Shown: positions 3,516-45,853 of the stretch, piece after piece
Numbering within the stretch: position 1 is the first letter of the stretch
How the letters are laid out: every line of letters begins with the position of its first letter
Assembly (NCBI GenBank): GCA_030427145.1
Contig: JAUHWT010000027.1
Span: 1 to 45,853 of the forward strand
Source: Alphaproteobacteria bacterium
Lineage (GTDB): Bacteria; Pseudomonadota; Alphaproteobacteria; Rhodobacterales; Rhodobacteraceae
Direction: 5' to 3'
Length of the DNA: 45,853 nucleotides
Made by a program: the position numbers and the translations under genes
The notes under the pieces: model-generated
What the model was told of the DNA's origin: nothing
Databases searched by the model: none
Seen by the model: only the letters and a program-made list of their open reading frames with translations

Positions 3516-3923
3516 ATGCCGATCCGACCGGAAAACCGGAAACGCTATCCGCCGGACTGGCCGGCGATCAGCCGGGCGCGGCGTGCGCAGGCCGGCAACA
3601 GGTGCGAGGGCTCGCCGGCCTGGCCGGACTGCCGCGCCGCGAATGGAATGCCGCATCCGGTCACCGGGTCGCGGGTGGTGCTGACCGTCGCGCATCTGGA
3701 TCACCGGCCGGAAAACGTCGACCCGGCCAATCTGCGCGCCTGGTGTCAGCGGTGTCACAATACCTACGATGCGCCGCACCGGTCGCGAAATCGTGCCGCG
3801 CGGGGTGCGGATGCCATGGGCGCATGTCCGGTTTCCCCGCACCCCGGCCTGTCCCGGCATGGAGGCAATGGAGGCAATCCGGCCGGGGATGGAGGCAATT
3901 TTCGGGGGTCCGGGGGGGATTGA
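3516..3923 (+). CDS. HNH-type zinc protein (putative endonuclease)
   Basis: 135 residues, ATG 3516 after a GAGGGGGTGAGGG purine run. Metal-binding and HNH-like residues are in order: C30, C39, AHLDH at 59-63, N72 (PANLRAWC), C77 and C80-H81 (CQRCHNTYD). This is the pattern of small zinc-bound HNH nucleases encoded near phage replication genes. After residue about 95 the sequence becomes Gly/Asn-rich (GGNGGNPAGDGGN), because the iteron repeats of the probable origin begin inside the 3' end of the gene; this tail is unlikely to be functional. It may nick or process phage DNA near the origin, but a homing-type nuclease is also possible. Confidence 0.75.
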   Translation: MPIRPENRKRYPPDWPAISRARRAQAGNRCEGSPAWPDCRAANGMPHPVTGSRVVLTVAHLDHRPENVDPANLRAWCQRCHNTYDAPHRSRNRAARGADAMGACPVSPHPGLSRHGGNGGNPAGDGGNFRGSGGD

Positions 3924-4167
3924 CGTGAAAAATCAATGGCTTTGGAGGCAATGGAGGCAATGGAGGCAATTTCCGGCATGACCCACGCGCGCGCGCGAGG
4001 AACAGGCGTGTTTTTCAAGGGGCTTTCTTCACGTATGCGGGGATTTGCCTCCATTGCCTCCATTGCCTCCATACGGGGTCTAAAACCCGTTTTAAAACAG
4101 AGGTTTAAATTGGTCCGGTTTGATACCTTCCGGCAAATTTGCCTCCATAATGCCTCCATTGCCTCCA
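3860..4167. repeat. Iteron array: twelve copies of TGGAGGCAAT in two orientations (probable replication origin)
   Basis: Direct copies start at 3860, 3869, 3890, 3943, 3952 and 3961. Inverted copies (ATTGCCTCCA or one-base variants) end at 4053, 4062, 4071, 4147, 4158 and 4167. They form four groups of three, often head-to-tail with a 9-bp step. Between the two inverted groups lies an AT-rich segment (about 4080-4128, with TAAAAC, TTTTAAAAC and GGTTTAAAT) in an otherwise GC-rich genome. No gene is supported between 3924 and 4248. Iterons beside an AT-rich core, just downstream of the primase-helicase and HNH genes, are the usual layout of a phage origin. A regulatory array is the alternative. 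Confidence 0.8.
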
Positions 4168-4248
4168 TATGGTTTCGGTCGAAAATAGCCGATGTTGTGG
4201 TTTCGCGGTTTAGTGCCGCGAAATGTTGTGAAGTGGAGGGGTGAGGAT

Positions 4249-24919: not shown

Positions 24920-26692
24920 ATGACGGAACTGACGGGACTGTCCGGCACCGATCTGGCCGGAACAGACAAGATTGTCGTGGTCGATGACAGCGGCGATGCG
25001 GCTGTGCGCAAGGCGGCGGATGCTGCAGCCGGGGCGGTTTATGCCTCCGGCCTGTCGGCGCTGTCGGGCACGGCACGGTTGCCGCATACGGCCGTCAAGG
25101 GGCTCGGGACCGCCGCCGCCGCGGCGACCGGGGATTTCGCCACCGCGGCGCAGGGCGCCAAGGCCGACACCTCGGTGCAGCCGGAAGATCTCGGCGCGGC
25201 CGCCACCAGCAACAGTTACGGCGATCTCGACGACAAGCCTACGCTCGGGACGGCGGCGGCAGCGGCCACCGGCGATTTCGCCACCGCTGCGCAGGGCGCC
25301 AAGGCCGACACGTCGGTGCAGCCGGAAGATCTCGGCGCGGCCGCCACCAGCAACAGTTACGCTGATCTCGACGACCTGCCGACGCTCGGGACGGCGGCGG
25401 CGGCGGCGACCGGCGATTTCGCCACCGCCGCGCAGGGTGCCAAGGCCGACACGTCGGTGCAGCCGGGCGACCTTGGCGCGGTTGCCACCAGCAACAGTTA
25501 CGCTGATCTCGACGACAAACCGGAAGTGACCGGCGGCGACGTGGTCGGACCCGGTGTGTCAACGGACGGCAATCTGGCGGTCATGGATGGCGCCACCGGC
25601 AAGCTGATAGCCGATGGCGGCGTGGCGGTGGCGGATGTCGTCACCTATTCCGAAACGGTCGCGGTCAGCAACGAGTGGGCCGAACTGTCGGCGACCGACG
25701 GAGTTGTCACGTTGCCGTCACCGTCGCCGTTTGGCGAGGTTCGGCGCTGGCGCACGCTGGCGGGCGATGAAGGCATTGCTTCCATCACGCCGTTCCTCGC
25801 CGGTTCGGTGCGGTTGCGGGTGATACAGGACGCAACCGGGGGGCGGGTGCTGAGTTGGCCGACGGATGTGCGGGCAATCGGTTTTACCGATGTCACGCTG
25901 CCGATGACGCCGAATTCATTCTACGACGCGATTTTCACCGCCGGGAGCGATGGCGTCATGGAGGTGCATTTTGGCGGTAAGTTCGATGCTGCGCCGTTGA
26001 GCATCGTCGGCCAGACCATTCTGGTCAACAACACGCCGTCGACCGTCGAGAACGACAAGATCATGTCCGTGCCTGCCGGTCTGCAGGACGGGGATGATCT
26101 GTTGCTGATTCAGGTCAAGGCGTTCACGACCAGCGCGACCGAGACGCCGACGGTGCCCGCGTCCGGAAACCCGACCGACATGCCGGCGGATTTTACCAAC
26201 GTTCGGGATTTCACAAGGATCTCCGGCGGCGCCCTGGAGGATCGCGCCTGTATGGCGGTGCAGCGCCGCACGGTGACGTCGGTCGATTTGCCGTTGACCG
26301 AAATCACCCTGCCCAAATTCCTGAATCAGTCGTCCTACTCGCTCATGGTGGTACGCGGCGGAATTGGATCGATCACCAGTGCCACGGCGGCGAACCGCGA
26401 TGGTGGGGCCGATGCAAACGAAATCGCCCTGCCGGTTGAAACGATTTCGAGCGGCAACGCGCTGGTTCTGTCGGTTGTGTGGCACAGCGGAAAAGAGAAA
26501 ACCTATACCGTCACCGGCTGGGACCGGCAGTATACCGCCGATCACAGTGGCGGCGACCATGTGTTCGCGACGCACGCGGTGTTTGTGCAGCAGAACGTGA
26601 CGCCGGGCGACACGGCGGCCGCAACCGTCAGCCTGGGCGGTGCCGCGGAAGAATCCGTTTCCGCGATGACCATGGTCCTGGAGCCCGCGTGA
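24920..26692 (+). CDS. Tail fibre with tandem 47-residue repeats, 590 aa
   Basis: ATG 24920 after GAGGA. Residues 62-201 are three near-identical 47-residue repeats (GTAAAAATGDFATAAQGAKA followed by DTSVQPEDLGAAATSNSY and DLDDKPT), a common phage-fibre shaft module that probably forms a trimeric stalk. Residues 230-360 form a beta domain with LPSPSPFGEVRRWRTLAGDE. The C-terminal 230 residues (from ILVNNTPSTVENDKIMSVPA) look like a compact beta-sandwich head and are the likely receptor-binding part. Stop overlaps the next ATG. Confidence 0.85.
   Translation: MTELTGLSGTDLAGTDKIVVVDDSGDAAVRKAADAAAGAVYASGLSALSGTARLPHTAVKGLGTAAAAATGDFATAAQGAKADTSVQPEDLGAAATSNSYGDLDDKPTLGTAAAAATGDFATAAQGAKADTSVQPEDLGAAATSNSYADLDDLPTLGTAAAAATGDFATAAQGAKADTSVQPGDLGAVATSNSYADLDDKPEVTGGDVVGPGVSTDGNLAVMDGATGKLIADGGVAVADVVTYSETVAVSNEWAELSATDGVVTLPSPSPFGEVRRWRTLAGDEGIASITPFLAGSVRLRVIQDATGGRVLSWPTDVRAIGFTDVTLPMTPNSFYDAIFTAGSDGVMEVHFGGKFDAAPLSIVGQTILVNNTPSTVENDKIMSVPAGLQDGDDLLLIQVKAFTTSATETPTVPASGNPTDMPADFTNVRDFTRISGGALEDRACMAVQRRTVTSVDLPLTEITLPKFLNQSSYSLMVVRGGIGSITSATAANRDGGADANEIALPVETISSGNALVLSVVWHSGKEKTYTVTGWDRQYTADHSGGDHVFATHAVFVQQNVTPGDTAAATVSLGGAAEESVSAMTMVLEPA
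25103..25525 (+). repeat. Three tandem 141-bp repeats in the tail-fibre gene
   Basis: Copies at 25103-25243, 25244-25384 and 25385-25525, each encoding the same 47-residue fibre module with few changes. Such direct repeats can change number by slippage or recombination, altering stalk length. Confidence 0.9.
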
Positions 26693-29600
26693 TGACGGTA
26701 TTTCGCGAACTTTCCACCGATGCGCTGGTGACGGTCGATTCCGCCGCGATTTCCGCGCGGGGCGCGGGAACTTTGACCGATGAGCCGCAGTTCGATTGGA
26801 TACTGACGTCGGACAGCAACGGGCGGTGGCAGGCGGCGGTCAGGATCAACGCGCTGCCGGCCGGTGCCACCGGCGCCCGTATTCAGGTTCTCGGCAACGC
26901 ACGGATTTCGATTGACGTCGGCACCGATCTGGTGACGCAGGAGCTTGGCGACATCTCCGATTGCATCCGGGCGGACGGTGTTGTTCTGGTCGGCATTTCG
27001 GCGCTTAACGGCGGCGGCGTCGGGCATGGCAACTGGCAGCGGATCGACACGAACGATGTGGATACGCCGTCGCCTTCCGCGCCGGTTCTGTTGTCGCCGC
27101 CGGATTTGATCGGGGTGGCCGAGGTTGGGCAGATTCTGACCGGCACGCCGGGCGACTGGTCCTATGCGAGGACGCTCGGATTTGTGATTGAGCGCCGCGA
27201 CGACGAGGATGCCGCGCAGACGGATGTTGTCGCGCCACATACCATCACGGACGGGGAAGTCGGGTGGACCTATCGCATAGCGGCAACGGCGAGCAACGAT
27301 TACGACGGCGGCTCAACGGTCGTCGCGTATTCCGAATGGTCCGATCCGGTCGCGACACCGGTCTATTCAAAGCCGGACACGCCGACCGCCGCCGACTGGT
27401 CGCGCGATTTCCACGATTACGAGGACGGCACCTATACCGTTGACTTGACGCTGGATTCGGGGCTGTCGGCGGTGGCGGTTCAGTGGACCAACATTCGCGC
27501 ATCGCATCCGGACGCGAACGAGGACGATTCGTTCGAGGACACAACATCGCTCGGATCGGATGTGTGGCGGATGACCAGTTCCGACGACCGGCATCTGAAA
27601 GAATACGGCGAGGGATTTGCGAACCTGTCGATCCGCTACAGGACCGATCTGGCCGGGCCGTGGTCCGACCGGTCGGTCGACATCAAGCCGTTGACGTATG
27701 ACGGCCCGGGCGACCCGCCGCCCGATCCCGATCCAGACCCGGTCTATGACTGGTTCCCGCTCGCCATAACGACCGCCGAACAGGCGGCTGCAGGCGTCTA
27801 TGGCGACGGCGGCCAACACATGCAGGGCGCCGCCAGATGCCTGGGATCGCCGCAGTACATTTCACTGTCGCAGGACGTGTCCGGCCTGTGGGTCTCGGAG
27901 GACGGCGGGGCAACGTATTACGTTCCGCGTCTCCAGGGGATGGGTTGTTCGGCGATGAATTCCATTGCGATCGACCCGGTCAATCCGTTGCGGCAGTTGG
28001 TAAATGCCGCCGGTTTCGGCGATGACGACTGCAAGGATTTTCAGGGCATCTATCTGACGACGGATCTGTGGAAAACCTGCACGCGGGTTCTGGCGAAGCC
28101 GGGCGACCAGGACTGGATCATCTGTCGGGACCGGTATGTGAACCGAAAGATCACGTTCGATCCGTCAACGGCAGGTGATCCGGAGGACCAGCGGGTCTGG
28201 TACGCGATTATCGAACTGACCAGCAGCGCGGTGCCGAATGGCAGTTTCGTGCGCCAGAACGGCTTTCTGTACCGGTCGGACGATGGCGGCGCGACGTGGA
28301 GCGGTAAATTGTTCACCATCCCCGCCGCCTGGGGTCAGACCGGTACGCTGCTGGTGCATCCGACAACGGGCGATCTGTATCTGTCGACCGAACAGGGGAT
28401 CAAACGGTCGCAGGACGGCGGATCGTCGTTTAACTCCTGGGGCACCGGCTACCCGTCGGGCGCCGTCAAGAACATGGTGCATTCCAGTGACGGCGCCACC
28501 ATGACGATCGCGGTTGAGAAGAAAGGCGTTTATCGGGCCACCGCAGGGTCGAGTGTGTTTACGCTGCTGCTCAGTGACACCAACCTGCACACGGTCGACG
28601 TGCATCCGGCAGACGACGACATCATCTGGGCACTGTATTACAAGGGTTATCCCAAAGTATCCGTCAACGGCGGAACCTATTGGAGCAACGTTTCATCGAC
28701 CGGTGCCGGTTATGCGCGGGACTGGTACAAGCAGATCCACGAACTACCCGCAATTCTCGGCAATCCCGACGATGTGGAGGACGCTGTCGCGACCGGCGGC
28801 TCGACGTTCCACCGGATGACCGCGAACATGAAACAGAACCGGATCGCACAGCAGGGGTTCATCGGGTCGTCGAACATGCGAACGCGCTGTTCGATCGCGT
28901 TCGACCCGGAAGATCCCGAATCCGTTTCCATGGGCCTCAACGACAAGACGCTGGCATGGTCGCGGGGTTCGGGCCTGCGGGCCTGGACGTTCAACGAGAT
29001 CCTGCCGACGCGCCCGGGCGGCAGTGACGACGTGATCCGGTCGGAACTGCCTGGCGGCGGGTCAAACGCGGTGCGTTCCGGGCTGATCTGTTTCGTTCCC
29101 CCTGTCACCGGGTCAAACCGGGTCGTTTTGGGTGTCGGAAACTACAGCAGGCGGATTCTGGTGACTGCCGACAACAACGGCGAAAACTGGAAACACGCCA
29201 CCGCGTCGCCGCATCCGCAGGAGAATTTTCTCGGCGGCGGATTCTCGCCGCTTGACGCCAATCTGTGTTTTGCCGGCACCTATCGCTCGACGAATGGCGG
29301 TGTGCTGTTTTCACAGATGACCGGCGCGCAGAACGGGGTGTTCGGCGTCTCAGGTCAGAACGCCGATGTCTGTTTCGCGGTCAATATTTCCGGCGGAAAA
29401 ATCTACCGTTCCGACTCTGGCGGCGACAGTTTCACCGAGTGGGTCGATTTCGGCGCCAATCTCGGAACGATTTACGGCGCGGACCCGATGTGGGTCATCG
29501 ATCCGACCGATGATACAACCAGTTTTGGCGTCCGATCCGACGGTGATCTGTGGCGGGCGACAAAGGTCGGGTCGAACCCGGTGACGTTCACAAAATGCAA

Positions 29601-31539
29601 CCTTCTGCAGCACATGGGCGGCGGCAAAATCAGCGGGTTCGCTGTCGATCCGAACGATCAGGACATTCTCTATGCGATCGCCGACCGGCGCGGTGTTCCG
29701 TATATCTGGCGGTCGATCGACCGGGGCCTGACCTGGACTGACATAACCAACGGACATCCATTGTTGGGCCGCCTGCGCTGGCCGCAGGTCAGCCCGTTTG
29801 GCGATGTCTGGATGGGCGGCGCGAACGGCATCCGCCTGTTCCCGCCGCCCTATGCCAGTGCCGGGAGCATGTGGTTGCGGGTGCGGGGATACAGCGCGAA
29901 GAAACCGTTGCCGCCGTCAGTGGTTGCGCCGACGGTGGATGTGGCGCCCACGATCAGCGGGACCGGACTGGTCGGTGGCACGCTCACACTCGATCCGGGC
30001 AGCTTTGACGGAACGCCGGCACCAATTGTCACGCAGCAATGGGTGCAGAACGGCGACCCGGTCCCGGCGGAAACGAACCTGACATATTCCGACATCATAT
30101 CGGTCGCACCTGCGGATGCGGTTTGCGTGGTCACGGCCACCAATTCGGCCGGGGCGGTAGAAGTCACCACCAACGCGATCGAGATCAACAGTCACAGTGT
30201 TGCCGTCGCTGACGTGGCCGGAGTATTCGGCGGGGCCGCAACACCGGTACTGCTGCAGGACGATGAGATTGAAAGCGTCAAGGCGCACGCAACCGACACT
30301 CTGCGAATCAGATTTGTCGGCGGCGCGCAGCCATGGGTGTCGATGATGGCGCATGTTGAAGGCGTCACCGATACGGTGACGCTGACGTGGGATGCCGGTT
30401 CCACTCTTTATAAATCGTCTGACAACAGCGACGTGTACGACGCATTCGCGGCGCAGTCGGGCGGCGTCATCGGCATAACGCCGTATGGAACGCCGGGGGT
30501 CGCGCCGACAATCGGAACGCTCGACGACAAGGACTGGCCGGTCGATACCGGTGACAGGTTCTACAACTACGGCCAGACAATGACCGGGACGCCGCCGTTC
30601 GACTTCTATCTGCATGCAAAGGTAATTTCAGTGCAGATATTCGACAACGGTGACGGGAGCCTGGGGTGTCGCGGCCTGGTCGCGGGTACGCCGGCGCCCG
30701 ACGTGTCGCGGCAGTGGAAGCTCAACGGCGCGGCATTCGACCCGGAACAAACCGGGGCATTGATCGACGCGGCCGGATTGACCGGGGATGTCACATGCGC
30801 GATCACGGCGGTCAATGAACACGCATCCGACACGCTCGAAAGCGCGGCGATTACACTCGGGGCTGCGGTCAATCCGGTGATCCTCGAGGTCATCGCGTCG
30901 GGAACCAACAGCGGCACGACGTCGTTTTCCGCGACCAACCCGGCCTATTCGATCGGTGATCTGGTGATTGTGGCCGTGCACATCGACCGGGGCGCGCAGC
31001 ACACCCTGACCGTGACTGCACCGGACGGTGAAACCGTGGTCGCGGCCGAACCCTATTTCGACACGGGTGATACAGGCACCGGCGGGAATTCGTCGGGGCT
31101 GTTTTACTACATCGCGACATCCGCCGGTGCCGAAGGGGCAAACATTACATGCACCTACGGCACCGGCGAGCAGTTCGCGGTTACGGTCGCCGTCGTCGAT
31201 TCCGGAACGTTTAACGCCGCGACACCGCTGGTGGATGTCGCGGCCACCAGCGCAACCGGTCTGACGGGCGAGGCATCCGCCGTTTCCGCCGCGTTTACGG
31301 CGACACCGGCTGCGGGCTTGGTGGCGTTTTTCTGCGGCAGCAACGCGGACGCCGTCAGCGGCACGCCTTCGGGATGGACGCAGCAAGTCAACCTCGATGT
31401 CGGCGCGGTCGCCGGATACTGCGCTACCCGCGACGCGCCGACAACGGCATCCGAGAGCGTCGCGGCCGGTACGTTCACACTGGCCGGCACGCAGATATGG
31501 ACCGGCATCACCGCCGTCATCAATCCCGGGAGCGCATAA
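26692..31539 (+). CDS. Asp-box beta-propeller tail protein, 1615 aa
   Basis: ATG 26692 overlaps the fibre stop. At least five Asp-box (BNR) motifs are seen: SEDGGATYY near 402, RSDDGGATW near 528, RSQDGGSSF near 573, RSDSGGDSF near 906 and RSIDRGLTW near 1007. These mark a sialidase/sortilin-like propeller across about 360-1060. N-terminal 340 residues contain fibronectin-like beta domains and a PPPDPDPDPDP linker. After 1070 come Ig-like repeats (PTISGTGLVGGTLTLDPGSF) and further beta domains. A surface-polysaccharide binding or cleaving role is plausible, but no complete sialidase active site was identified, so enzymatic activity is uncertain. Confidence 0.85.
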   Translation: MTVFRELSTDALVTVDSAAISARGAGTLTDEPQFDWILTSDSNGRWQAAVRINALPAGATGARIQVLGNARISIDVGTDLVTQELGDISDCIRADGVVLVGISALNGGGVGHGNWQRIDTNDVDTPSPSAPVLLSPPDLIGVAEVGQILTGTPGDWSYARTLGFVIERRDDEDAAQTDVVAPHTITDGEVGWTYRIAATASNDYDGGSTVVAYSEWSDPVATPVYSKPDTPTAADWSRDFHDYEDGTYTVDLTLDSGLSAVAVQWTNIRASHPDANEDDSFEDTTSLGSDVWRMTSSDDRHLKEYGEGFANLSIRYRTDLAGPWSDRSVDIKPLTYDGPGDPPPDPDPDPVYDWFPLAITTAEQAAAGVYGDGGQHMQGAARCLGSPQYISLSQDVSGLWVSEDGGATYYVPRLQGMGCSAMNSIAIDPVNPLRQLVNAAGFGDDDCKDFQGIYLTTDLWKTCTRVLAKPGDQDWIICRDRYVNRKITFDPSTAGDPEDQRVWYAIIELTSSAVPNGSFVRQNGFLYRSDDGGATWSGKLFTIPAAWGQTGTLLVHPTTGDLYLSTEQGIKRSQDGGSSFNSWGTGYPSGAVKNMVHSSDGATMTIAVEKKGVYRATAGSSVFTLLLSDTNLHTVDVHPADDDIIWALYYKGYPKVSVNGGTYWSNVSSTGAGYARDWYKQIHELPAILGNPDDVEDAVATGGSTFHRMTANMKQNRIAQQGFIGSSNMRTRCSIAFDPEDPESVSMGLNDKTLAWSRGSGLRAWTFNEILPTRPGGSDDVIRSELPGGGSNAVRSGLICFVPPVTGSNRVVLGVGNYSRRILVTADNNGENWKHATASPHPQENFLGGGFSPLDANLCFAGTYRSTNGGVLFSQMTGAQNGVFGVSGQNADVCFAVNISGGKIYRSDSGGDSFTEWVDFGANLGTIYGADPMWVIDPTDDTTSFGVRSDGDLWRATKVGSNPVTFTKCNLLQHMGGGKISGFAVDPNDQDILYAIADRRGVPYIWRSIDRGLTWTDITNGHPLLGRLRWPQVSPFGDVWMGGANGIRLFPPPYASAGSMWLRVRGYSAKKPLPPSVVAPTVDVAPTISGTGLVGGTLTLDPGSFDGTPAPIVTQQWVQNGDPVPAETNLTYSDIISVAPADAVCVVTATNSAGAVEVTTNAIEINSHSVAVADVAGVFGGAATPVLLQDDEIESVKAHATDTLRIRFVGGAQPWVSMMAHVEGVTDTVTLTWDAGSTLYKSSDNSDVYDAFAAQSGGVIGITPYGTPGVAPTIGTLDDKDWPVDTGDRFYNYGQTMTGTPPFDFYLHAKVISVQIFDNGDGSLGCRGLVAGTPAPDVSRQWKLNGAAFDPEQTGALIDAAGLTGDVTCAITAVNEHASDTLESAAITLGAAVNPVILEVIASGTNSGTTSFSATNPAYSIGDLVIVAVHIDRGAQHTLTVTAPDGETVVAAEPYFDTGDTGTGGNSSGLFYYIATSAGAEGANITCTYGTGEQFAVTVAVVDSGTFNAATPLVDVAATSATGLTGEASAVSAAFTATPAAGLVAFFCGSNADAVSGTPSGWTQQVNLDVGAVAGYCATRDAPTTASESVAAGTFTLAGTQIWTGITAVINPGSA

Positions 31540-37135: not shown

Positions 37136-37869
37136 GATGCCTCCGCTATCAGGCGAAGGATGGTGTCGCGCTGCCGGATGCGGGCTACCCTTCGGGCATC
37201 ATCATCAGCATTAACAGCCCATCGGGCAGCATCAACAGCCCATCGGGCAGCATTAGCAGCCCATCGGGCAGCAATTGCAGACCATCGGGATTCATCAGCC
37301 CGTCGGGCAGCATCAGCAGCAGAAGCAGCAGCCCATCGGGCAGCATCAGCAGCATCAGCAGCAGCCCATCGGGCATCAGCATCAGCATCAGCAGCAGCAG
37401 CAGCAGCATTAGCAGCAGCATTGGCAGCAGCAGCAGTATCCCACACACCGCCGGATGCCAGCAGGTCCATCCCGGCAATCACGGGGTTAATCACGGCCTG
37501 CATCTCGTCACTCTGCGGTGGCAGCGCCCGCAGCTCAGCGGCGAGGAACTTCCACGGGACACGGGTAAGATCCTTCCCGTCTCGGGCCACGGCACCGGGG
37601 AAGTCACGGAAGAATGCCTTTGCCTCGTCGGGCGGGAGCGCCTCGAATACGTATTCACATATTCGGAGCAGCATTGGGGGCAGGCCAAACCGCTCAAATG
37701 CCGCGTCAGGGCTGCTGGAATGGGTCAGGCAGGAGATAAAGCAGCCCCTGCCGCCAACGGCGTTGCCGTGTTTGCGCCAGTAAACGCCTTGCACCAGCGC
37801 ATCGGCGGCAATGTGTTTTTCAACCTCCGTAACAAGATCGACGTGGTTGCGGGTCAGTATGAGGGTCAT
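37132..37869 (-). CDS. Phage protein with Ala/Trp helical repeats, 245 aa
   Basis: ATG at 37869 after GGAG. Residues 1-140 form a folded domain of a widespread but unnamed phage family: GRGCFISCLTHSSSPDAAFE, PPMLLRICEYVFEALPPDEA and VPWKFLAAELRALPPQ. Residues about 144-228 are low-complexity helical repeats of AARWAAD type (AANAAANAAAAAADADADAR followed by repeated ARWAxxA). The end (RIRQRDTILRLIAEAS) closes with a charged helix. The same domain/repeat/charged-helix order is seen in relatives from memory, so the repeats are genuine. Function unknown. Confidence 0.75.
   Translation of the reverse strand: MTLILTRNHVDLVTEVEKHIAADALVQGVYWRKHGNAVGGRGCFISCLTHSSSPDAAFERFGLPPMLLRICEYVFEALPPDEAKAFFRDFPGAVARDGKDLTRVPWKFLAAELRALPPQSDEMQAVINPVIAGMDLLASGGVWDTAAAANAAANAAAAAADADADARWAAADAADAARWAAASAADAARRADESRWSAIAARWAANAARWAVDAARWAVNADDDARRVARIRQRDTILRLIAEAS
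37194..37440. repeat. Low-complexity repeat region with 21-bp and 6-bp periods
   Basis: Multiple copies of AGCCCATCGGGCAGCAT separated by AGC/ATC triplets, with runs of AGCAGC and AGCATC. On the minus strand it encodes the Ala/Trp repeats of the gene at 37132-37869. The regular 21-bp step near 37215-37280 suggests recent duplication. Confidence 0.85.
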
Positions 37870-42181: not shown

Positions 42182-42808
42182 TCAGTCATTCAGGCGCCAA
42201 CTCGCGGTGACGGTGCCTTTGATCTCAACGCTTTCGCCGTCGACATTATGCGCCGATACATGCCCGGTCACATGGCCGAGGATGATTGCGAAGGGCGGCG
42301 CGTACTGTGCCAGGTGATTGGTGGCGCTGCCGATTTCAAGGTCGTTGAGGGCGATCAGAACCTGCGCGCCTTCGTCGGGATCGGTCGCGGCGTGGTCGAC
42401 CAGCAGGAAGTCGCCCGGCAGGTATCCGGCGGAAATCATCGTCTGGTTGGTCACGCGCCACACCTCGCGGTCGCCGCCGGCACCGGCGGCGCGGGCCATG
42501 TCCAGCAGATGTTTCGACGGATGGTGCGGGCCGTCACGGCGCAGCAGGAATGGCGTGACCGAGGATTGCGGCCGGTCGTCCGGTGCCGGCGCCTCGACGC
42601 CGAACAACAGCCATTCGCGGGTGACCCGGAACGCGGTCGCATATTTCGCGGCGGCGCGGGTGATCCCGCGCGTGCCGTTTTCGTGCTGCGCGTAGGTCTC
42701 ATACTTCCAGTTGAAGCGTTTGGTGGCGGCGAGCGCGGAGTCAAATCCGGCACGCTCGCGGGCCTGTTGCAGTCGAATGGCGGGTTCGGGGCGGGTGTCT
42801 GTCGTCAT
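42182..42808 (-). CDS. CI-like phage repressor (HTH plus S24-like domain), 208 aa
   Basis: Start ATG 42808 abuts an operator (42810-42824). Residues 11-70 form the HTH domain (RLQQARERAGFDSALAATKR; ENGTRGITRAAAKYATAF; VTREWLLFG). After a linker, about 115-208 resemble a LexA/CI S24 dimerisation domain: VWRVTNQTMISAGYLPGDFL with PGDFLLVD, and VEIKGTVTASWRL at the end. The canonical Ser-Met is Thr-Met (123-124), and I see no obvious catalytic Lys. This would suggest a repressor not removed by self-cleavage. A CATAAT box 6 bases before the ATG implies leaderless mRNA, as for lambda cI. Confidence 0.85.
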   Translation of the reverse strand: MTTDTRPEPAIRLQQARERAGFDSALAATKRFNWKYETYAQHENGTRGITRAAAKYATAFRVTREWLLFGVEAPAPDDRPQSSVTPFLLRRDGPHHPSKHLLDMARAAGAGGDREVWRVTNQTMISAGYLPGDFLLVDHAATDPDEGAQVLIALNDLEIGSATNHLAQYAPPFAIILGHVTGHVSAHNVDGESVEIKGTVTASWRLND

Positions 42809-42809
42809 G

Positions 42810-42873
42810 CGTGCATTATGCACGGATGATATGTGCATTTCGCCTTGACGGGCGTATGTGCGTTATGCATTTA
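42810..42873. promoter_or_regulatory. Repressor/Cro control region with three operators
   Basis: Operators (13 bp, GTGC-R-T-W-W-Y-GC-x-x): 42811-42823 (perfect palindrome, 15 bp with flanks), 42833-42845 and 42858-42870; centres are 22 and 25 bp apart. The rightward promoter has TTGACG (42845-42850) and a weak -10 near 42868-42874; the third operator sits in its spacer and the second touches its -35. The leftward repressor promoter has CATAAT (on the minus strand) inside the first operator. Binding would repress both directions. Confidence 0.78.
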
Positions 42874-42881
42874 TCCTCGCC

Positions 42882-43097
42882 ATGTCGAATGTCATGAACC
42901 TTAAACAGATCCGCAAGAGCGCCGGGTGGGGCCAGAAACGGCTCGGGGATTTCCTCGGGGTCGATGCCTCGACGATTTCGCGCGTTGAAAGCGGCAAGGT
43001 CATTCCGTCCGGTCCGCTGACCAAGATGATCGACCTGTGGGTCGAGCAGCACGGCGCCGCCGGCACACAAACCGAAAACTGCGGGGCGGCGCAATGA
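42882..43097 (+). CDS. Cro-like HTH repressor, 71 aa
   Basis: ATG 42882 (ATG 42894 is an alternative). Single XRE-type HTH: LKQIRKSAGWGQKRLGDFLG, VDASTISRVESGKVIPSG with recognition helix DASTISRVESG, then KMIDLWVEQHG. It is divergent from the CI-like gene and shares its operators, the usual place of Cro. No strong Shine-Dalgarno sequence; the predicted transcript start falls near the ATG, so it may be leaderless. Confidence 0.85.
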   Translation: MSNVMNLKQIRKSAGWGQKRLGDFLGVDASTISRVESGKVIPSGPLTKMIDLWVEQHGAAGTQTENCGAAQ

Positions 43098-43202
43098 GCG
43101 CCGCCCCTGTCACGCGTACCAGACATACAAACGAACTCCCGCATGACGGGGCGTCAGAACCGAGCAGTTCCGAATCCCGAGTATCAGTAGAGCGGAGTTT
43201 CC

Positions 43203-43538
43203 ATGAACAATCCTGCATTTTCGACGTGCCTGAAGAAAATTTCAGCGTCCGGCGTGGTGCCGCCGGACGGGAGGGGCCGCGAGGGGCGGCCGAAATACGA
43301 TCCGCGGCGGCGCGACCGGGTGCGGCGGCGGATGGCGGCGATGCTGGTCGCGGCGTTTCCGGCGGAAACGCAGGCGGACACGGCGCGGGCGGCGTCGGCG
43401 GCGACCGGGTATTCGGCGCGGCAGGTGATCAACTGGCTGAACGGGTGCCACGACATGCCGGCGTTCATGGCCGAATGGCTGGCGGAACGGGTCGAGGCGG
43501 TCGAGGCGCTGGCGCAGCGGATCGAGGCGCGGCGCTGA
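43203..43538 (+). CDS. HTH protein of the early operon, 111 aa
   Basis: ATG 43203 after CGGAG. Gly/Arg-rich N-terminus (GRGREGRPKYDPRRRDRVRR) followed by helices: MAAMLVAAFPAETQADTARA, an HTH-like ATGYSARQVINWLNGCHDMP and MAEWLAERVEAVEALAQRIE. The central segment with YSARQVINWLNG has the recognition-helix form. It could be a second early regulator or a transcription activator (CII-like slot). The 105 bases before it contain only a doubtful frame starting at 43094. Stop at 43538 is followed by a stem-loop. Confidence 0.7.
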   Translation: MNNPAFSTCLKKISASGVVPPDGRGREGRPKYDPRRRDRVRRRMAAMLVAAFPAETQADTARAASAATGYSARQVINWLNGCHDMPAFMAEWLAERVEAVEALAQRIEARR

Positions 43539-43544
43539 GGGCCG

Positions 43545-43815
43545 GCATCGCCGGTCTGGCGATGCTTGTAACGTTTTCGGTGCGCCGTATCGGCGGCGCC
43601 CTGATTTTCCGGCTGCGCGGGCGCTGAAAGATTTTTCAGCCGCGCGACCGGTTCTGCTGACGTTCCCGGGGCAACAGCCCTTTTCCTCCCCGGGCCGCTT
43701 CGGGGGCGTCAGCAGAACCGGAAGGACCGCCGGTTCGAAGGGTCGCGGCACGGGCTGGTCGAACAAACCCGCCGCGACCCGCGCCGCCGCCGGTGGGTTG
43801 AGGCACCGGCGGCGG
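43545..43815 (+). ncRNA. Tandem array of five stem-loops in a gene-free stretch (candidate structured RNA)
   Basis: Five perfect inverted repeats in 271 bases: GCATCGCC/GGCGATGC (43545-43565); GCTGAAA/TTTCAGC (43623-43640); 15-bp CCGGTTCTGCTGACG/CGTCAGCAGAACCGG (43648-43662, 43707-43721) enclosing CCCGGGG/CCCCGGG; 9-bp GGGTCGCGG/CCGCGACCC (43740-43780); 12-bp CCGCCGCCGGTG/CACCGGCGGCGG (43784-43815) with an 8-base loop. The first may be a terminator (followed by TTGTAACGTTTT). No convincing frame covers the interval. Possible roles are an antitermination (put-like) RNA, a regulatory RNA or a replication/packaging signal. Confidence 0.55.
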
Positions 43816-43846
43816 ATTGGCGCAACGGCAGGCAGGCAGGCAGGGC

Positions 43847-44053
43847 ATGGGCGGACGGCCGGAAGGGTTTGAACACATGGCGGGCTCGGATTTCGAGGCG
43901 CTGGACCGGATGGCGGCGGCATCGGGCACCACGGCGGACCGGCTGGCCTGCGCCCTGGTTGAACAGTCGCTCGACCACATCCGCCAGTTCGGCGTGACGC
44001 CGGGCGGCGCGGGGCTGCTCGGCCCGGTGCAGGCGGCAAGGCGAAAGGGATAG
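43847..44053 (+). CDS. Small helical protein, possible RHH-like fold, 68 aa
   Basis: ATG 43847 after a GGCAGG tract. FEALDRMAAASGTTADRLAC followed by ALVEQSLDHIRQFGV resembles the helix pair of ribbon-helix-helix proteins, but the first strand is not evident. Gly-rich ends. First gene after the structured region. A DNA-binding role is possible. Confidence 0.6.
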   Translation: MGGRPEGFEHMAGSDFEALDRMAAASGTTADRLACALVEQSLDHIRQFGVTPGGAGLLGPVQAARRKG

Positions 44054-44057
44054 GGCG

Positions 44058-44275
44058 ATGGACCGTTCGCTGCACGGCAACGGCGAGGCCTGCGCGCTGC
44101 GGCGGGCCGATCGCCGCGCGGCGCGGGAGTTTGAGCAGGGCGTGTCCTGCAACCTTTGCGCCGGCGCGGGGCGGATCGAAAGGCCCATGCCGGCGTGGTG
44201 CGCGAGGCGGCGGCATGGGCCGCGCAACATTACTGGCCGGAGCGCGTGGCGCGCTGGCGGATGGCAGGAAGGTAA
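44058..44275 (+). CDS. Small CxxC protein, apparent frameshift near 44190
   Basis: ATG 44058 opens a frame with EACALRRADRRAAREFEQGV and CNLCAGAGRI that has no stop before the next gene. After about 44190 a shifted frame gives VVREAAAWAAQHYWPERVAR and WRMAGR, ending in TAA 44273-44275, five bases before the next ATG and its ribosome site. The combined protein (about 72 residues) looks natural, so an indel or programmed frameshift is likely. Reading straight on to 44570 as one fused protein is the alternative. Confidence 0.4.
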
Positions 44276-44279
44276 GGCG

Positions 44280-44570
44280 ATGACAGGAACGGTGACGCGG
44301 GACGTGATCCTGCAGGGGGCGTCGACGGCGCTGGTCGAGCGGGGCGCGAAATACGGCGAGGCGGGCGCGCTGTTCGGCCGGGTGGCGGCGGTCTGGTCGG
44401 TGCGGCTCGGGGTTGCGATCGCGCCGTCGATGGCGGCGTCGCTGATGGGCGATCTGAAACGCGCCCGGGCCGACATCGGCGGGTTCGATCCCGACCATGC
44501 CGTCGATGCGGTCGGCTACGAGGCGCTGGCCGGCGAGCTGGCGGCGGCGGAAGATGCGGAGGTGTTCTGA
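44280..44570 (+). CDS. DUF6378-type protein, 96 aa
   Basis: ATG 44280 after AGGAAGG. Pattern: ILQGASTALVERGAKYGEAG, FGRVAAVWSVRLG, LMGDLKRARADIGGFDPDHA, VDAVGYEALAGELA. This is the helical DUF6378 domain, common in phage early regions and related in style to MazG-like nucleotide pyrophosphatases (DRxxxYGxxxxxF). Function not established. Four-base... the stop overlaps the next ATG by one base. Confidence 0.8.
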   Translation: MTGTVTRDVILQGASTALVERGAKYGEAGALFGRVAAVWSVRLGVAIAPSMAASLMGDLKRARADIGGFDPDHAVDAVGYEALAGELAAAEDAEVF

Positions 44571-45586
44571 TGCAGGGGCATTTTCGCCGGGTCGACATTG
44601 GTGACATGAAGGCGCCGCCGGCGCGGGAGGATTTCGGCCCGGCACCGGATCTGCGCTGGCTCGAGATTGCCGACATGGTGATCGACGGGCGGTACCAGCG
44701 CGAGATCGGCCCGCGAAACATCCGGTCGATCGAGGCGATTGCAAGGGCGTTCGAATGGGCGAAATTCTCGCCGGTTTTGGTGGCGCCGGTCGAGGGCGGC
44801 AAATTCGCGGTGATCGACGGTCAGCACCGGATTCATGCCGCGGCACTCTGCGGGATTTTGTCGGTGCCGTGTCAGAGCGTCAATCTGGCGACGCGGGAAC
44901 AGGCAGCGGCGTTCACGGCGGTCAACGGCAATACGGTGAAGATCACCGCGTTTCACATTTACCGTGCGGCGCTGGCGGCCGGTGAGCCATGGGCCTGCGG
45001 GATGCGCGACTGTGTCGAGGCGGCGGGGTGCCGGGCGATGACCGGCGCTACCTCTACGGCGCAGAAAAAGCCGGGCGAGATTTACTGTCTGACGTTCATT
45101 CGCGAGCGGATCGCCCGGACGGGACCGGAGCCGGTGACATGGGCGCTCGACGGGCTGCGCCGATCGGACAGGGGCGGCGCGGAGCCGTGGCTGTGGGGCT
45201 ATGCGTTTCTGCGGCCGTGGGTGCTGGCGCTGACGGCGCGGTTCGACCTGCGCCGGGGCGGGGTGGATCTCGCGGGCTTCGTCGATGCGCTGGACATCCG
45301 GCGCATCGAGCGTGAGGCGGATGCGCGGATCGACGGTCTGCGCCGGACGGGCGGCGTCACGCCACCGCGCCATGACCTGATCGAGGCGGCGTTGGGGGAA
45401 GAACTCGACCGGTTCGTCAATCCCGGACAGGCGCCCGTGCCGCCGGCGGCGCTGGTGGTGCCGCGGATCGCCGCGCCGACGGTAAAGTCGGCGCCGGTTT
45501 CGCCCGCACCGGCGAAGGAGGTGCGTCTGACCAGGGCGGACAGGGCGTTCGGCGCGGCACTGGCGGCGATGAAGGGGGGCGCGTGA
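44570..45586 (+). CDS. ParB/Srx-fold nuclease-like protein, 338 aa
   Basis: ATG 44570 overlapping the DUF6378 stop. N-terminal ParB-like domain: LEIADMVIDGRYQREIGPRN (about 31-50), IRSIEAIARAFEWAKFSPVL, and the signature VIDGQHRIHAAALCG at 81-95 containing the GQHR nucleotide-binding motif. A helical middle (TREQAAAFTAVNGNTVKITA) and C-terminal helices with a Pro-rich linker follow. Free-standing ParB-like proteins in phages act as DNA-binding CTPases or nucleases and often belong to early operons. The specific role here is unknown. Stop overlaps the next ATG. Confidence 0.85.
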   Translation: MQGHFRRVDIGDMKAPPAREDFGPAPDLRWLEIADMVIDGRYQREIGPRNIRSIEAIARAFEWAKFSPVLVAPVEGGKFAVIDGQHRIHAAALCGILSVPCQSVNLATREQAAAFTAVNGNTVKITAFHIYRAALAAGEPWACGMRDCVEAAGCRAMTGATSTAQKKPGEIYCLTFIRERIARTGPEPVTWALDGLRRSDRGGAEPWLWGYAFLRPWVLALTARFDLRRGGVDLAGFVDALDIRRIEREADARIDGLRRTGGVTPPRHDLIEAALGEELDRFVNPGQAPVPPAALVVPRIAAPTVKSAPVSPAPAKEVRLTRADRAFGAALAAMKGGA

Positions 45587-45853
45587 TGGCGCATGCGTTG
45601 ACGGCGGAGGACTGGACGGCGGTCGATGCGGTGTTGCGCGGCAACTGGACCCTGTGCAGCGATCTGGAACTGTCGGCAATGACCGGAGAGGTGCTGCGGC
45701 ATCGTGGGGCGCTGTCAGTGTCGAGAATCGGCCAGCGGCGGCGTGAGCTGGGGCTGCAGCGCCCGCTCGGCGGGTTCGGCAACCCGGAGCGGCAGGAGGC
45801 GTTCAACCGGTACATCCGCGAACACTGGCGGCGGAAGTCGGACGTGCAGATGG
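45586..45853 (+). CDS. Two-repeat HTH-like DNA-binding protein, 5' part (continues at base 128)
   Basis: ATG 45586 overlaps the ParB-like stop. First 89 residues of the gene whose 3' part is at 1-330: LTAEDWTAVDAVLRGNWTLC, then a helix LELSAMTGEVLRHRGALSVS, the first basic motif RIGQRRRELGLQ and the start of the second unit (ERQEAFNRYIREHWRRKSD). Read through the circular junction the protein has 156 residues. Confidence 0.78.
   Translation, partial: MAHALTAEDWTAVDAVLRGNWTLCSDLELSAMTGEVLRHRGALSVSRIGQRRRELGLQRPLGGFGNPERQEAFNRYIREHWRRKSDVQM
45727..45853. repeat. Terminal direct repeat, right copy (circular junction)
   Basis: Exact copy of bases 1-127. The reading frame that starts at 45586 enters this repeat in the same phase in which the left copy is read, so joining the two ends gives one intact gene. 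Confidence 0.93.

Follow-up and report, generated by a model that had tools for sequence, protein, structure and literature searches.

A conserved two-part element downstream of a small HTH gene in early operons of Rhodobacteraceae phages, and a probable worn copy of it within a highly structured interval

Genomic setting of the locus

The window, i.e., the whole stretch of 45,853 nucleotides that was analysed, is a complete contig (C31) of a 4.54 Mb genome in 40 contigs. Genes for a D5 primase, TerL, a portal protein, a head protease, a major head protein and an integrase are among those scanned in the window, and judged by these matches the gene set is as in a temperate tailed phage. Positions 1-127 and 45727-45853 are identical, and these 127-bp ends give a circular assembly of 45,726 bp, which may represent a phage-plasmid, an excised prophage or the assembly of a permuted genome. 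The early region contains the following genes:

42182-42838, minus strand: CI-like repressor gene (PHROG phrog_4, transcriptional repressor, 3.4e-8)
42858-43097, plus strand: Cro-like HTH gene (HTH_3, 2.7e-8), the first of the early rightward operon
43203-43538, plus strand: P3, the second HTH gene, used as marker of the conserved locus
43535-43627, plus strand: candidate small ORF with a CTG start overlapping the P3 stop, or an ATG at 43562, in the position of the Arg-rich ORFs of relatives
44280-44570, plus strand: DUF6378 gene (P5; Pfam, 1.5e-15), a downstream gene common to some relatives
44570-45586, plus strand: ParB-like gene (P6) of the early rightward operon

The early rightward operon is thus ordered Cro-like gene, P3, hairpin interval, small ORFs, DUF6378 gene and ParB-like gene. 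Repeats also occur elsewhere in the window. An array of the 9-bp repeat TGGAGGCAA occupies 3859-4171, with direct copies at 3859-3878 and 3943-3970 and inverse copies at 4045-4072 (TTGCCTCCA) and 4140-4171 (TGCCTCCATA); direct and inverse copies together form a 27-bp inverted repeat with a fold z of -8.9, located downstream of the D5 primase and an HNH gene. The array is iteron-like and perhaps marks a replication origin. A 141-bp unit is present in three tandem copies at 25102-25522 inside a long ORF, and degenerate CAGCAT/CAGCCCATCGGG tandem repeats at 37206-37436 lie over a minus-strand ORF (37185-37478).

P3 looks like an XRE-type HTH protein in its AF2 model, which has a mean pLDDT of 83.4 and four main helices; the Foldseek matches listed are largely HTH proteins and are not significant (best E 1.8 in PDB and 0.24 in BFVD). 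Relatives of P3 were found in 10 of 394 genomes of the family and in 11 of 292 genomes of the order (own genome included in both), as well as in 52 viral-contig loci. The P3 of the window matches the P3 family profile with an E value of 1.6e-29, the window being one of the nine rows of that profile, and single-sequence matches reach down to 1.1e-9. Downstream of P3, 75 loci were read, of which 55 are distinct; without the window, 54 distinct loci were reduced to 39 representatives. In four of these (L056, L062, L127, L129) the RQVxNWL core is missing, and their relationship to P3 is doubtful.

The downstream genes are shared with part of these loci. The DUF6378 protein has tblastn matches at the P3 loci L058, L069, L078, L088, L100 and L125, plus L174, which is the contig of L078. 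This contig, IMGVR_UViG_3300048586_000277, is syntenic with the window, carrying P3, the H1/H2 element described below, DUF6378, D5 primase, HNH and TerL in the same order; the proteins of the two phages share 40-42% identity. Relatives of the ParB-like P6 are present in 12 of 394 family genomes (own included) and in seven phage records, and Paracoccus phage Shpa encodes one; the flanks of P6 relatives that were examined, including those in three of the seven phage records, gave no P3. Together with a Haematobacter contig that carries the P3 of L067, the Shpa relative suggests Rhodobacteraceae as the host family.

Predicted structures of the hairpin interval

Between P3 and the DUF6378 gene the DNA is densely packed with inverted repeats. 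The earlier note on this DNA had described five perfect stem-loops in 43545-43815, and a repeat search of the window recovers all of them. The lengths given there (8, 7, 15 with a nested 7, and 12 bp) are correct except for the repeat noted as 9 bp, which has 10 bp; moreover, the list had missed the hairpin SL2, the one that turns out to be conserved. The structures of the interval, all in plus-strand orientation, are:

43545-43565, plus strand: SL1, 8-bp hairpin, perfect repeat (arms 43545-52/43558-65)
43579-43601, plus strand: SL2 = H1 hairpin with several possible pairing registers, also terminator-like (R1 match, fold, terminator-like scan)
43623-43640, plus strand: SL3 = H2 dyad, GCTGAAA-GATT-TTTCAGC, 7 bp, perfect repeat (arms 43623-29/43634-40)
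43648-43721, plus strand: SL4, 25-bp hairpin including G-U pairs
43740-43780, plus strand: SL5, 10-bp hairpin (arms 43740-49/43771-80)
43784-43815, plus strand: SL6, 12-bp hairpin (arms 43784-95/43804-15)
43728-43734/43816-43822, plus strand: closing stem of the predicted three-way junction enclosing SL5 and SL6 (RNA fold)

The minimum free energy of 43530-43830 is -187.1 kcal/mol compared to a shuffle mean of -149.0 (z -6.4), and none of 100 shuffles is as low. In a GC-corrected scan of both strands with 271-nt windows every 90 nt, 43561-43831 on the plus strand ranks first, followed by 43471-43741 on the plus strand and by 43561-43831 on the minus strand.

The interval splits into two parts, module A (43535-43646) directly after P3 and module B (43647-43822) behind it. 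Module A folds with a z of -2.8 (43539-43646) and module B with a z of -7.8, the latter as a 25-bp hairpin followed by a three-way junction. The SL4 arms form a 21-nt pair (43648-68/43701-21) with the outer 15 bp perfect and a nested 7-bp repeat at 43665-71/43688-94. Counting G-U pairs, the 15-bp stem extends to 25 contiguous pairs in the sense strand and 15 in the antisense strand, which points to a plus-strand RNA.

No relatives of module B were found by BLAST of the interval against phages and plasmids or in Rfam. A 3-kb query gave no match among phages or plasmids; with a 322-bp query, plasmids gave none and phages only GC-rich matches of 28-29 nt in three Gordonia phage records. DNA matches of the interval in 115 of 295 family genomes (own included) were short and by eye GC-rich low-complexity pieces; these were rejected. 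In 198 family genomes (own included), a covariance model built from nearly a single sequence of module B had no match outside the contig of the window, and its matches in 48 loci and 14 TerL-neighbour loci have E values of 0.16 or worse. Furthermore, 13 nt of each SL4 arm have no exact match in viral contigs. Within the window, the model gives weak matches at 31120-31259 and 28112-28269 (E 0.04). As a predicted structure module B is real, and so far it is a phage-specific RNA with a very stable modelled fold; a role as barrier, processing structure or regulatory RNA is a guess.

The assignment to no described family, made before any database search, agrees with Rfam, since neither the window nor eight relatives have a match at the gathering score; the best sub-threshold match is mir-9223 with 24 bits, 53 being needed. 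The notion of a single five-hairpin element does not hold up: in the relatives found, only SL2 and SL3 have counterparts.

A small Arg-rich ORF after P3

Of the 39 representatives, 32 have a small Arg-rich ORF that begins at the P3 stop or close to it, often as ATGA, and that encodes a common motif; this motif is missing in L055, L056, L062, L067, L105, L127 and L129. The peptide reads roughly M..R...Y..RFYEARxxRA..Y..LK..AEKFFRRL. Among the four examples scanned, no fitting Pfam or PHROG family was found. In relatives the small ORF appears to be translationally coupled to P3, and the ORF family is clearly conserved as a protein. One class of these ORFs (e.g., L063 and L079) has a greater length and a C-terminal stretch that by eye is hydrophobic and may span a membrane.

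The window itself has no small Arg-rich ORF that stays open through H2, and at the overlap with the P3 stop it carries CTG, not ATG. Its candidate ORF has a Phe codon at +36, as in L067, whose P3 is carried on a Haematobacter contig, and the frame ends at a TGA within H2. The candidate small ORF of the window is possibly a worn-down version of the gene of the relatives. The earlier statement that the interval holds no credible gene is therefore correct from about 43628 on, but not for 43535-43627 (from the CTG) or 43562-43627 (from the ATG), where an open frame lies at the position of the small gene of the relatives.

Nucleotide conservation of H1 and H2 within the coding sequence

In the relatives, H1 sits on the EARxxRA codons of the small ORF. 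In the null model, codons were redrawn from each locus's own usage, and scoring covered the 32 of 39 representatives with the peptide motif. An H1 stem of at least 6 bp (G-U allowed, one fixed register) is present in 21 of these 32 loci, compared to 3.1 expected from synonymous resampling. H2, the dyad GAARNWTTYTTC, is found in 23 of 32 small ORFs versus 1.85 expected; the H2 resampling covered at most 45 codons after H1 and thus missed the H2 of L125 at +188. The folding of the small ORF as a whole is only mildly better than in codon controls (mean z -1.1 resampled and -0.8 permuted, 36 ORFs).

For H1, two-sided changes were seen in six of nine pairs of the 15-row alignment A3, and again in six of nine in the 27-row A6, a model-fitted alignment that leans to the model. 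The covariation score in A3 exceeds all 500 shuffles and six slid controls, the shuffles ignoring relatedness. The outer pairs often fail in A3 (8-28 is unpaired in 11 of 15 rows and 9-27 in 7 of 15); the innermost pair in A6 is C-G in 10 rows, G-C in 10, unpaired in 5 and gapped in 2. Because G-U pairs occur and two-sided changes are kept, we infer that H1 probably acts as RNA. Covariation at homologous sites, which had been proposed as a check, is accordingly seen for one hairpin.

The H2 core lies downstream of P3 in 26 of the 39 representatives, in 25 at +78 to +118 and in L125 at +188, and 13 representative P3 loci have none. In the 25 loci with a settable codon register, the register is 0 in 15 and 2 in 10, so that the dyad accompanies AEKFFRRL-like as well as AEKYFSRL-like peptides, built from different codons in each. 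Moreover, all 12 EKFF motifs counted use GAA AAA, though these codons make up 36% and 28% of usage. The inner positions within GAA/TTC often have A opposite C, for which reason H2 is maybe a DNA site; on the sequences, both an RNA function and that of a DNA dyad are possible for H2.

Both arms of H2 differ together in one group of loci: L054, L067 and the window have TGAA/TTCA instead of GGAA/TTCC, and they also have a common P3 variant (..VINWL..HDMP). Since this variant accompanies the TGAA..TTCA arms and P3 is HTH-like, P3 as the reader of H2 would be a reasonable assumption. The window contains a second copy of the dyad:

43230-43245, plus strand: CTGAA-N6-TTCAG, lying within the P3 gene some 390 bp upstream from the SL3 copy

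The motif CTGAA-N6-TTCAG thus occurs twice in the window versus 0.02 expected, with none of 100 shuffles having two, and it is missing from all 126 loci (of 131) in which the window's own stretch is not contained. In L135, an apparently intergenic second H2 (GGGAAAAATTCTTCC, position 559) lies by eye directly upstream of the promoter-like TTGACG-N17-CATAAG.

A conserved reading frame through the interval had been named as an observation that would speak against a structural element. It was found in part: in the relatives, the small ORF overlaps the first 90 nt, within module A. The nucleotide signal nevertheless exceeds what coding explains.

The covariance model R1 and the copy in the window

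H1 and H2 are both present in 26 loci. The covariance model R1 was built from the 15 of equal length (78 nt; A3), the window not included and L054, L057, L058, L063, L070, L071, L079, L089, L107, L125 and L128 left out; the alignment A2 (24 of the 26 loci) was set aside, MAFFT having aligned the two H2 registers with an offset of two columns. The H1/H2 of the syntenic L078/L174 phage belongs to the training set. R1 reaches E <= 1e-4 in 23 of the 28 viral records searched (of 52), including 15 of 20 records outside the training set. There is no convincing second R1 site in the 28 records, weaker matches having E values of 0.0018 or worse and the records possibly being fragments. Among 198 family genomes, R1 reaches this threshold in three: two known P3 loci and one false positive, L134 in a genome of the same genus, which was rejected as it lies between host genes reading by eye like gcvH and gcvP.

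On both strands of the 45.9-kb window, the best R1 match is 43573-43643 with a modest 16.6 bits (E 0.0083), placing SL2 at H1 and SL3 at H2; in the genome-wide R1 search this copy falls short of E <= 1e-4. A second match in the window (15.2 bits, E 0.02) lies antisense in P3. The H2 core GAARNWTTYTTC of the window is at 43626-43637, +88 after the P3 stop. At the level of sequence comparison, it could be shown that 43573-43643 matches a two-part H1+H2 element retained immediately behind P3 in many temperate phages of this bacterial family, and that in the relatives H1 and H2 are conserved as nucleotides beyond the needs of the peptide, at a near-fixed place in the early operon. SL2 and SL3 look like a worn copy of this element. 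The dyad is intact though the small ORF is closed through H2, which would fit a site whose function does without the peptide. Together with the gene matches, the H1/H2 conservation supports what had been suspected from the letters: behind the Cro-like gene and the second HTH gene, the early rightward operon contains a nucleic-acid element.

In the contigs whose TerL is closest to that of the window (L143-L146, 74-76%), the 10-kb flanks examined gave neither a P3 match (E <= 0.001) nor an R1 match (E <= 1), so the H1/H2 element tracks the early module and not the packaging genes.

Possible mechanism and alternative explanations

We favor, tentatively and with less than even confidence, the reading that module A acts in cis on the early transcript, at a place like that of a nut site, and that module B is a barrier or processing structure behind it. 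For module A, we infer action in cis on the early rightward transcript. RNA polymerase would leave the cro-P3 genes and H1 would fold in the nascent RNA, whereupon a phage regulator, i.e., P3 or the Arg-rich peptide, would recognise H2 by its fold or its sequence. This recognition would set the level of transcription into the downstream early genes, nut-like in position and logic, and module B (SL4-SL6) would most likely be the barrier or processing structure on which the H1/H2 control acts. Antitermination through intrinsic terminators was considered as a form of this control and rejected, because the terminator count downstream gave no sense surplus (14 sense versus 12 antisense in 40 loci).

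The strongest alternative, possible but on the whole unlikely, is that H2 serves as an operator in the DNA, where a dimeric HTH protein (in the simplest case P3) would bind GAA-N6-TTC and block or activate transcription, and H1 would be a separate RNA hairpin. The nearly symmetric dyad with its frequent A opposite C at inner positions is in line with this, as are the HTH-like model of P3 (structure matches not significant), the P3 variant common to the loci with TGAA..TTCA arms, the two copies near the P3 start and after P3 in the window and the second H2 of L135 next to a sequence that by eye is promoter-like. However, the usual H2 lies within a coding region and follows the P3 gene at a distance of about 90 bp, and an AT-core GAA-N6-TTC upstream of the P3 stop is present in only five of 40 loci (L072, L078, L109, L129 and the window). 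For H1, moreover, the G-U pairs and two-sided changes point to RNA.

That the interval is a terminator cluster or attenuator which limits the early operon, with no antitermination involved, is improbable. It contains several strong GC hairpins, and SL2 plus CCTGATTTTC has a terminator-like score in the sense strand, where it alone qualifies; yet there are no T-runs after SL4, SL5 and SL6 or, by eye, after H1 in relatives, and the scan of 42700-44200 on both strands gave four sites, including a single sense one, compared to 1.4 +/- 1.4 in shuffles.

Membership in the HK022 put family, raised before as a possibility, is not supported. HK022 put acts by protein-free antitermination via the beta' zinc-binding domain. 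The put RNAs are about 70 nt long with two stem-loops and occur as putL and putR (PMC9378689). Two hairpins in an early rightward transcript are the likeness to module A. In contrast to put, H1 and H2 are separated by unconserved sequence of about 31 nt in the equal-length relatives and of 24 to more than 100 nt in others, no convincing second copy was found per record (28 records), and there is no Rfam match; we regard direct modification of RNA polymerase by module A as a put-like RNA without protein as very unlikely.

No more credit can be given to H2 as a conserved module-boundary sequence for the mosaic recombination of phages, an idea from lambdoid phages: H2 does lie near the end of the cro-P3-small ORF block, but just 12-16 bp are conserved and both arms differ together in the L054/L067/window group. 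The least likely explanation is that the pattern is a by-product of the conserved peptide (EARxxRA...AEKFFRRL) in GC-rich codons. The small ORF family is clearly conserved as a protein, yet resampling falls far below the 21 and 23 of 32 loci with H1 and H2, H2 uses two codon registers and the H2 of the window is kept out of the small-ORF frame.

Comparison with known regulatory systems

Returning to the nut-like reading of module A, a close likeness is to lambda nutR (boxA-boxB), an early rightward site downstream of cro with a short hairpin and an Arg-rich small protein. The element described here is similarly placed downstream of cro in the early rightward transcript, has a short hairpin with covarying arms (H1 was scored with a 5-nt loop) and an Arg-rich small protein nearby. 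Unlike nutR, it lacks a conserved boxA, has its conserved linear part (H2) downstream of the hairpin and is embedded in a coding region. In the 40 loci, GYTCTTTRA (<= 1 mismatch) was found four times versus 1.7 expected, CGCTCTTA five times versus 2.5 and TGCTCTTTRACA (<= 2 mismatches) once versus 0.3. No N homologue was identified with Pfam and PHROG profiles. By analogy, the covarying H1 might be a boxB-like hairpin bound by a hypothetical N-like protein.

Aca2-type HTH autoregulators bind DNA inverted repeats as well as RNA stem-loops. A small HTH protein adjoining inverted repeats is common to both cases and serves as a lead only; the Foldseek match of P3 to 7vjq_A has an E value of 6.6 and is not significant, and the sites lie downstream of the gene here.

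Implications for phages of this family

The best-described cases of early-operon RNA control are those of enterobacterial lambdoid phages. In the open-access literature searched (titles and starts of abstracts), no such element is described for alphaproteobacterial phages, which is not proof of its absence in print; one article treats the anti-termination of a Caulobacter gene transfer agent (PMC11150451). As a more far-reaching and rather doubtful proposal, H1 and H2 might constitute a processive elongation-control site, nut-like and of independent design, that is hidden in the gene of a small Arg-rich protein and has either this protein or P3 as its partner; in the phage of the window the site would have outlived the reading frame, with a hyperstable RNA module behind it.

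The overlap with a coding sequence would let the H1/H2 element escape screens of intergenic regions. A widespread covarying element with two codon registers moreover offers a concrete target, since mutations can disrupt and restore H1 and H2 while the peptide stays the same. If true, this would be an undescribed nut-like system in temperate phages of this alphaproteobacterial family.
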